This document shows, in pieces, positions 1 to 64,000 of a DNA stretch of 64,000 nt. The position numbers were made by a program, and so were the translations under genes. Origin of the DNA: Candidatus Eiseniibacteriota bacterium (lineage in GTDB: Bacteria > Orphanbacterota > Orphanbacteria > Orphanbacterales > Orphanbacteraceae); assembly GCA_029262235.1 (NCBI GenBank), contig JAJCZU010000007.1, forward strand, positions 123,630 to 187,629, in the 5' to 3' direction. Every line of letters starts with the position of its first letter. Position 1 is the first letter of the stretch. The notes beneath the pieces were generated by a model, which was not told where the DNA came from, ran no database searches, and saw nothing but the letters and a program-made list of their open reading frames with translations.

Positions 1-17
1 TGGGAAGGAAAAGAAGG

Positions 18-59
18 GGCTCGCCTCGGAATCAATTCTCTCGACCGCTCGGCCTGGGG
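18..59 (+). repeat. Half copy of hairpin family 1
   Basis: This stretch matches the 5' arm and first part of the core of the element at 78-173. It breaks off at GGCCTGGGGA, and the sequence starting TGGGAAGGAA then restarts at 61, giving an exact 60-bp direct duplication of the left half. It therefore looks like a truncated or slipped copy without its 3' arm. Confidence 0.7.
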
Positions 60-77
60 ATGGGAAGGAAAAGAAGG

Positions 78-173
78 GGCTCGCCTCAGAATCAATTCTC
101 TCGACCGCTCGGCCTGGCCAAATGGCCAAGTAAAGAGGCCTCGCGGATCCGAGAACTGATTCCGCGCCGAGGC
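78..173 (+). repeat. Hairpin element family 1, copy A
   Basis: Outer arms 78-100 and 151-173 are imperfectly complementary over 23 nt. Inside lies the family core: CGACC, an inner stem (CCGC..GGCC with GGCC..GCGG), the paired boxes TGGCCA-AA-TGGCCA, then AAGTAAAGAGG and GGATCC. A T-rich tract (CTTTCGTTTCCTTTTT) follows the 3' arm, so on the plus strand the element also resembles a factor-independent terminator. The element and its flanks are duplicated at 246-341. I do not recognise the family. Confidence 0.75.
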
Positions 174-245
174 TTTCGTTTCCTTTTTGGAAGCGGGAAG
201 AAAAGAGAAGAGTAGAAGGCGGAAGGGATGGGAAAGGAAAGAAGG

Positions 246-341
246 GGCTCGGCTCGGAATCAATTCTCTCGACCGCTCGGCCTGGCCTAATGGCCAAGTA
301 AAGAGGCCTCGCGGATCCGAGAACTGATTCCGCGCCGAGGC
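246..341 (+). repeat. Hairpin element family 1, copy B
   Basis: Arms 246-268 and 319-341 are complementary with two or three mismatches. The core is nearly identical to copy A, with TGGCC-TAA-TGGCCA in the apical part. Flanks are shared with copy A (TGGGAAAGGAAAGAAGGGG before, CTTTCGTTTCCTTT after), so A and B arose by duplication of about 130 bp with a 168-bp period. Confidence 0.75.
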
Positions 342-529
342 TTTCGTTTCCTTTATTGAGGGCGGGAAGAGAAGAGGCGGAAAGGCGAGCGGAGTGGGCG
401 GTGCAGTTGGGGTGGCGAGCGATGGCGAACCGCTTGCGCTCTTGATTCTTCCCGCCGCGCGGCGGGAATGTCGAGGCGCCACGGAACAGAAACCATCGCA
501 GTGCTTCGTGCGATGAAGATGTTTTCCTT

Positions 530-620
530 CCGGGGCGCGACGGGCTTCCCGGATCCCGCGAGGCTCCGTACTTGGCCAGTTGGCCAGCCGAGCGGGTCGA
601 GGGAAGTTCGAGCGCCCCGG
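530..620 (-). repeat. Hairpin element family 1, copy C
   Basis: This is the first of three 91-nt copies in reverse orientation. Outer arms start CCGGGGCGC and end GCGCCCCGG. Read on the minus strand, the core is CGACCCGCTCGGC, TGGCCA-AC-TGGCCA, AGTACGGAG, CCTCGCGGGATCCG. The arms differ completely from copies A and B but are again complementary to each other. Confidence 0.75.
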
Positions 621-668
621 ACCAGAAAGCCCTCTTCTGTTCGCTCGTGCGATGAAGATGTTTTCCTT

Positions 669-759
669 CCGGGGCGCGATGAGCTTCCCGGATCCCGCGA
701 GGCTCCGTACTTGGCCAGCTGGCCAGCCGAGCGGGTCGAGGGAAGCGCAAGCGCCCCGG
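669..759 (-). repeat. Hairpin element family 1, copy D
   Basis: This 91-nt copy lies exactly 139 bp after copy C, with the same CCGGGGCGC / GCGCCCCGG arms. The apical boxes are TGGCCA-GC-TGGCCA. The left flank (GCGATGAAGATGTTTTCCTT) is identical to the left flank of copy C, showing that element plus flank was duplicated as one unit. Confidence 0.75.
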
Positions 760-807
760 GCCGGGGTTCCTTATTCCTGTCGCATGAACAGCGCAGATGA
801 ATCCATT

Positions 808-898
808 CCGGGGCGCGACGGGCTTCCCGGATCCCGCGAGGCTCCGTACTTGGCCACTTGGCCAGGCGAGCGGGTCGAGGGAGGCTCAAGCGCCCCGG
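808..898 (-). repeat. Hairpin element family 1, copy E
   Basis: This 91-nt copy lies exactly 139 bp after copy D. Arms are CCGGGGCGC / GCGCCCCGG and the apical boxes are TGGCCA-CT-TGGCCA on the plus strand. It ends 57 bp before the start codon of the ABC importer operon, so transcription into that operon must begin inside or just after it, or read through it. Confidence 0.75.
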
Positions 899-955
899 AC
901 CGGGTTTTATCTTTTGCAAAACAATCGCGGGTGTATCCCGCTTCGAGGAGATCTC

Positions 956-46079: not shown

Positions 46080-46125
46080 CCGGATTCCCCCTCGTCCCTC
46101 GTCCCTCGTTCCGTTTGTGAAGAGA

Positions 46126-46219
46126 AGGCGCGGGGCCGCTGTTCTCCTCGACCGCCCGTCCTGGCCAAATGGCCAAGTACGGAGGCCGGGCGGATCCGTA
46201 GAACAGCGGCCCCGCGCCT
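46126..46219 (+). repeat. Hairpin element family 1, copy F
   Basis: The arms 46126-46145 and 46200-46219 are perfectly complementary over 20 bp and unrelated in sequence to the arms of the copies at 78-898. The core is shared: CTCGACCGC, TGGCCA-AA-TGGCCA, AGTACGGAGG and GGATCCG. The inner stem reads CCGCCCG / CGGGCGG here, where copies A and B have TC opposite TC, a compensatory change. Confidence 0.8.
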
Positions 46220-46311
46220 CCCCTCCGGCACGCGTGCCAGGGGGAGGAACGGGAGAGGCGGGGTGAATTCTTCCCTGCGCCCCGAATCGGTTTCTTCATG
46301 CGAGTGCGCTT

Positions 46312-46378
46312 GACCGGATTCCCCTCGCCCCTCGTCCTGGCGTACGGCCAATGGGCCTCGGGGCTCGGGGAACCGGTC
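46312..46378 (+). repeat. Short family-2-like hairpin, copy J
   Basis: Arms GACCGGATTCCCC and GGGGAACCGGTC pair with one bulge. The inside holds TCGCCCCTCGTCCTGGCG and GGCCAATGGGCCTCGGGG, resembling the outer blocks of the longer family-2 elements at 55.7, 56.1 and 63.9 kb with the middle missing. Confidence 0.55.
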
Positions 46379-46492
46379 TGCGCGTGCGAGAGGAATACGG
46401 AGGAGCCGTTGGCGGCCGAGTGAGCGGTGAGCTTCGGGCTGAGTGTCACTGGCGCAAGCCCCCCTCCAATGAGCGCGAACAAGCTTCGAATG

Positions 46493-46571
46493 CGAGGAGG
46501 TCGTTCCTCGGAGCCGCGAGCCCCATTGGCCGGCCCGCCAGGGCGAGGGGCGGAGAGGAATGATCTCCTCG
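46493..46571 (-). repeat. Short family-2-like hairpin, copy K
   Basis: Arms 46493-46509 and 46555-46571 pair at 15 of 17 positions. Read on the minus strand the inside shows CGCCCCTCGCCCTGGCGGGC followed by CCAATGGGGCTCGCGGCTCC, again the two family-2 blocks without the long middle. Confidence 0.55.
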
Positions 46572-46612
46572 TGGACGAGCTTGTTCCGACTCTTCTCCTG
46601 CTCCTCACCCTC

Positions 46613-63780: not shown

Positions 63781-63834
63781 GCGTGAAGTGCTGCGGGGGT
63801 GGGTGCTCGCCGTTAGGAATAAGAGTCGGAGGCG

Positions 63835-63967
63835 GCGCGAGCGGCGTGTCGGCTTCTCCTCGCCCTCGCCCTGTCGGGCTTGCTGACAAGAACATCGAAA
63901 CGAGAATGCCGTACCCCCGCTCCTCCAATGGGGCTCGGGCTGCGGGGAACCGACACGCCGCTCGCGC
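63835..63967 (+). repeat. Hairpin element family 2, copy I
   Basis: Arms GCGCGAGCGGCGTGTCGG (63835-63852) and CCGACACGCCGCTCGCGC (63950-63967) are perfectly complementary over 18 bp. The inside starts CTTCTCCTCGCCCTCGCCC, TGTCGGGCTTGCTG and ends GCCGTACCCCCGC, CCTCCAATGGGGCTCGGGC, TGCGGGGAA, as in copies G and H. It lies downstream of the last complete gene, with no T tract. Confidence 0.8.
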
Positions 63968-64000
63968 GGAGTACGGAAGAAGAGAGCGCGGGGCTCAATG

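Follow-up and report, generated by a model that had tools for sequence, protein, structure and literature searches.

Genus-restricted hairpins with a conserved core and arms conserved as pairing are probably copies of a non-autonomous palindromic element

The gap between rsmG and thrC in the 64-kb stretch of DNA analysed here (the window) holds a hairpin at 46126-46219, whose 20-bp 5' arm (AGGCGCGGGGCCGCTGTTCT, 46126..46145, + strand as read) is the exact reverse complement of its 3' arm (AGAACAGCGGCCCCGCGCCT, 46200..46219, + strand), as a sequence-only reading of the window had claimed. The 54 nt between the arms (46146..46199, + strand) form a conserved core that contains all the motifs named in that reading, CGACC, TGGCCA-AA-TGGCCA, AGTACGGAG and GGATCCG, and a model match spans 46124-46222 (86.2 bits, E 2.7e-26). 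When folded, this core consists of an internal loop (TCGA/ATCC), an inner stem (CCGCCCG/CGGGCGG) and, at the apex, the stem TGGCC-AAAT-GGCCA, together with an 8-nt bulge, AGTACGGA. The same gap contains two hairpins of a second family, one at 46300..46392 on the + strand with the core CCTGGCGTACGGCCAATGGG and one at 46485..46578 on the - strand, facing inwards from the thrC side. Five family-1 hairpins are arrayed at the start of the window, two on the + strand (77..175 and 245..343) and three on the - strand (527..624, 666..763 and 805..902), the last of them about 55 bp ahead of a predicted gene start at 956; the copies reported earlier at 78-341 and 530-898 are thus real, and the inner stem does differ on both sides between them and the rsmG-thrC copy (TC/TC to CC/GG). 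With up to three mismatches, the core pattern matches nine times in the window, compared to 0.09 matches expected from shuffles.

Incomplete and altered copies lie at both ends of the window. Positions 1-60 hold a family-1 half copy, in which the 5' half runs to CGGCCTGG and is followed by GGGA and the next copy, without a 3' half, and half copies resembling it occur at C2:345140 and C6:309074 of the genome studied (G000; 4.47 Mb in 11 contigs). At 63797..63996 (approximate boundaries, no strand assigned) lies a probable family-2-type hairpin, recognised partly by direct reading, whose apical loop is replaced or enlarged (CGCCCTG...CAATGGGGCTCGGGC). Together with G000 C6:83981-84661, it is family-2-like with an apical loop replaced by tens to about 100 bases, as if such loops were open to further insertions.

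Using a pattern search and a covariance model, we recovered about 55 family-1 hairpins from G000 with E below 1e-11, together with about 25 weaker matches that make up a sister family, family 2, whose core is CCTGGC-loop-GCCAATGGG. The genus mate, G001, carries at least four such hairpins, a lower bound that says nothing on the true number because the assembly is fragmented and 82% complete. None of five other genomes of the same bacterial family contains a clear hairpin copy, and the weak model matches in other genera fall within predicted genes or on their borders, without showing the fold. A pattern scan of genome contigs outside the genus returned 55 matches, none with the extended core, and the viral contigs scanned returned no match. 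The window has no Rfam match at gathering score, in keeping with the sequence-only reading, which could name no described family with this core. The hairpins are restricted to one genus.

Further hairpin families occur in the same genomes. A third (TGCGCCGAAGGCGGCCNGCTCAAGGTTGGTCT) has five copies in G000, three in G001 and none in other genera of the family (loci L187, L007 and L193; G000 C2:257508-258162, C6:83981-84661 and C4:912029-912561). A fourth (ACGGGGACCCCTGCCGAGCCTGYCGAGGCAGGGGT) has 13 copies in G000 and six in G001, among others at G000 C6:479-513, C6:674-708 and C3:366565-366599; the second dnaE2 insertion described below includes one of them.

The outer arms are conserved as pairing rather than as sequence. 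Among 30 mutually dissimilar family-1 copies, mean arm identity was 0.57, compared to 0.56 for random 26-mers, and only 3% of arm pairs exceeded 75% identity, whereas each arm scored on average 19.7 with its own partner and 10.7 (sd 2.5) with the arms of other copies, the own partner being the single best match in 20 of the 30. Family-2 arms behaved alike (19.9 with the own partner, 10.6 with others). In an alignment of 62 copies, which was fitted to the model and is hence biased towards the structure, 93% of cells are paired, and two-sided changes occur at 13 of the 19 pairs and in 143 cells, compared to 44 cells in shuffles; none of 500 shuffles reached either the pairing pattern or the two-sided count, and sliding one side by a single base abolished the signal. 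These results bear out the proposal of a structured element with co-evolving arms. The claim that arms are specific to each locus stands for the dissimilar copies, but not for small subfamilies (for example GGCGCGAGGTCGTTG...) and tandem arrays, whose members share arms. Since related loci have arms in common, these arms may plausibly descend from common ancestors and have drifted with compensating changes; recent movement should likewise leave shared arms, and as few are seen, either the movement is old or the arms are rewritten.

The core anatomy and the stem mismatches indicate which strand is folded. Defining the reading strand as the orientation in which the 46126-46219 copy is read as +, the family-1 layout from the outside inwards comprises the variable arm, TTC(T/C)C, the internal loop TCGA opposite ATCC, an inner stem that is often CGCTCG/CGAGCG and varies on both sides, CC, the apical stem TGGCC with a loop of 4-5 nt and GGCCA, the one-sided 8-nt bulge, and GG. 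In copies with 5-nt apical loops the closing pair changes on both sides (AAACT, GAACC, TGACA), evidence for a single strand that folds and against a double-stranded palindrome. Across 40 dissimilar family-1 copies, stem mismatches on the reading strand are biased towards A.C (48, versus 17 G.T) and T.C (89, versus 13 A.G), and these correspond to G.U and G.A on the complement, which is therefore probably the selected single strand. RNA would be expected to contain such pairs, and ssDNA tolerates them. In 47 of 54 copies, the complement is also the strand with the more stable fold. The bias is weak in family 2 (17 A.C versus 10 G.T). From mismatches and fold stability, the active strand at 46126-46219 is likely the minus strand.

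Several copies lie within open reading frames, in both orientations, and their folds persist there. The dnaE2 gene (C2:113646-117968), whose product has the Pfam DNA polymerase III alpha domains, carries two long in-frame insertions: one splits the PHP domain and contains a family-1 hairpin together with a family-2 hairpin in inverted orientation, the other precedes the HHH motif and contains a family-1 hairpin and one of the fourth family. Both long inserts are absent from DnaE2 of four other genera, two of which have short extra segments there. The 237-bp insert (79 codons) of a membrane-protein gene is made up of a family-1 hairpin and an inverted one of family 2, and in a protease-like gene a pair of family-2 hairpins lies in frame; neither product has a Pfam domain, so both identities come from direct reading, and an empty form was seen for neither. 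The two dnaE2 copies have SLDR(S/A)AWPN in common, but translation of the membrane-protein copy uses a different frame, so neither peptide nor frame is conserved across the insertions. A coding origin of the repeat was rejected on the differing frames and the occurrence of 2-nt bulge deletions.

Comparison with G001, whose compared flanks share 83-91% DNA identity with G000, revealed turnover of the hairpins. Three orthologous elements are kept (C4:79378, C6:112881 and C3:367093), whereas at C4:948958 and C4:502911 the whole hairpin, arms included, is missing from the orthologous gaps, through either a gain here or a loss in G001, the one sister species compared. Of the two arms at C4:948958, the left one is GA-rich and similar to the element-free flank in G001, and the right one is CT-rich and looks new. 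The rsmG-thrC gap measures 533 bp in G000 and 170 bp in G001, where a different hairpin shares part of a family-2 arm, so the gap differs between the sister genomes, but not by the bare stem that the sequence-only reading had envisaged. A bare stem does occur at the G001 ortholog of C2:405421 (contig C53); its loop retains an element piece, GGAGGGAAT, and the stem is therefore best read as a deletion derivative. Two five-hairpin arrays, on C7 (window 1-955) and at C8:381087-381974, are 85% alike over 904 bp, and the similarity is confined to the gaps, reaching to within about 55 bp of their edges; the flanking genes are unlike. These homologous arrays between unlike genes, the presence/absence differences and the in-frame insertions uphold the idea of mobility or turnover. 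A partner transposase had also been envisaged, but none was identified: Y1_Tnp (PF01797) has no match in G000 or G001, whereas five control genomes match. No target-site duplication was recognised at the one site inspected closely, where GA-rich flanks blur it. Two variants were noted in passing: an orthologous hairpin in G001 (C595, L203, about 442-536) has an extra small palindrome, GTGCAGCCTCCGGCTGCAC, that disrupts pairing in one arm, and the gap after rsmG in another genus (G005 C17, L200) has a near-perfect long stem (AGTTCTGGGGACACAATACGCAATTC...) of unrelated sequence.

The hairpins hold a fixed polarity at gene edges, which are approximate because gene prediction relied on a simple codon-score finder. 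In total, 68 elements occupy 46 gaps, 19 of them convergent (an enrichment). The reading-5' side points towards the nearer gene in 28 of 32 single-element gaps (p=1.9e-5), and in the 14 multi-element gaps a - copy never precedes a + copy; inward-facing pairs (+ then -) are common and bound an inserted island. Of the 68 elements, 49 face a 3' end, with a median distance of 37 bp to the stop, and 19 face a 5' end, with a median distance of 79 bp. Unlike element-free gaps, the flanks are purine-rich on the reading strand (0.63-0.67 upstream, up to 0.72 downstream); on the complement, the likely RNA strand, they are thus C/U-rich and G-poor on both sides, and the genome encodes Rho. No U-tract follows the stems (T 0.18-0.37 at the first six positions, no run), which rules out a canonical intrinsic terminator; the presence of hairpins inside intact genes speaks against a strong terminator, and on both grounds we rejected an ordinary terminator reading. 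We found nothing specific in the literature on convergent terminators.

Among known systems, the closest likeness is to the Rickettsia palindromic elements (RPE), repeats of about 150 bp that form several taxonomically restricted families per genome and often lie in frame within genes of apparently functional proteins (PMC10969869, PMC3733652). The present elements share with them the in-frame palindromic repeat in intact genes (dnaE2 twice, membrane, protease-like), but differ, on a comparison by description, in arms kept as pairing alone, common inward-facing pairs and a frame that is not constant. REP, BIME and REPIN elements are multi-copy hairpins near 3' ends, a preference like that seen here; they also occur as opposite-orientation pairs, and G.T pairing and stem changes that are complementary point to a role as RNA (PMC3733652). 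Copy number, position, paired orientation and complementary stem changes are features in common. However, REPs measure 20-40 bp, carry a GTAG/CGTC tag at one end and are in many cases tied to RAYTs, whereas the present elements mostly measure 70-130 bp (range 66-168 bp) and lack both a recognised tag (no constant tetranucleotide occurs at arm ends or in the 15-nt flanks) and Y1_Tnp, whose absence rules out a RAYT-driven REP. The ERIC, NEMIS and BOX families keep their stem sequences, whereas here the outer stems of most loci are no more alike than by chance, as judged from descriptions and Rfam. Those folded intergenic repeats are co-transcribed, taxonomically restricted and able to alter mRNA stability, and BOX has been judged parasitic (PMC1590033, PMC3049150). 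The outer arms vary among loci, so the constant terminal inverted repeats of a MITE are lacking, and attC-like integron sites were rejected from anatomy, as the conserved part lies at the apex and not at the base.

A conserved core, pairing-only arms, about 80 copies in two sister families, fixed outward polarity, turnover and in-frame insertions are observed, and we consider it probable that this genus has its own non-autonomous palindromic element, similar in kind to RPE and REPINs, of which the hairpin is one copy; its long arms, conserved as structure alone, are unusual among such elements. It is less likely, though worth some weight, that the hairpins are resident RNA elements at gene edges, acting as terminators or as polymerase or exonuclease barriers that shield the gene from gap transcription. 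In favour of this, the probable RNA strand is directed into the gene, the element-specific flanks are C/U-rich and G-poor like Rho loading sites in a genome that encodes Rho, and convergent gaps and 3' ends are favoured. Yet both orientations occur inside intact reading frames, the U-tract is missing, whole hairpins are missing at orthologous G001 gaps, and REPs show the same 3'-end preference (PMC3733652).

It is improbable that the arms owe their perfection to replication template switching, in which the flank is copied to its complement (quasi-palindrome correction), and not to selection on pairing. This process would produce perfect, site-specific arms and would suit C4:948958, with one flank-like and one new-looking arm, but it should have removed the internal loops and the 8-nt bulge as well, and these are still present and conserved; it also predicts no strand bias in mismatches, against the 48:17 of A.C versus G.T. 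Template-switch correction may add to arm perfection; it explains neither the loops nor the bias. We find equally doubtful a new structure-templated insertion mechanism, whereby a mobile element would be recognised through its folded core alone and its arms rewritten at each site by flank copying. Least credible is the suggestion, made in the sequence-only reading, that mobility lies in the core by itself, which would enter the loops of terminator stems already in place. The conserved core between unconserved arms and the bare stem on G001 C53 would fit it; however, that stem keeps an element piece, arms are missing along with the core at C4:948958 and C4:502911, and the in-gene copies have arms, with no counterpart in the proteins of other genera.

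For the palindromic element that we favour, we propose that copying or insertion would involve a trans-acting factor that recognises the core in its folded form, through the apical stem and the 8-nt bulge. It would do so on a single strand, RNA or ssDNA, and most likely on the one opposite to the reading strand. The arms would be needed merely as a paired handle, and would therefore drift through G.U and G.A intermediates. Surviving copies would gather at gene edges, chiefly at 3' ends and in convergent gaps, as well as within genes, where tolerant protein loops would accept them in frame. Stabilising or ending neighbouring transcripts may be side effects, and a terminator or barrier role is possible as such or at some sites.

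Palindromic repeats inserted in frame have been described mainly in Rickettsia, and the present genus apparently provides an independent case, in which several families occur side by side with stems largely freed from sequence constraint. The approximately 80 copies constitute a natural data set on which strand and which part of the hairpin a mobilising factor needs, and they point to a route by which folded repeats may add segments to core enzymes.
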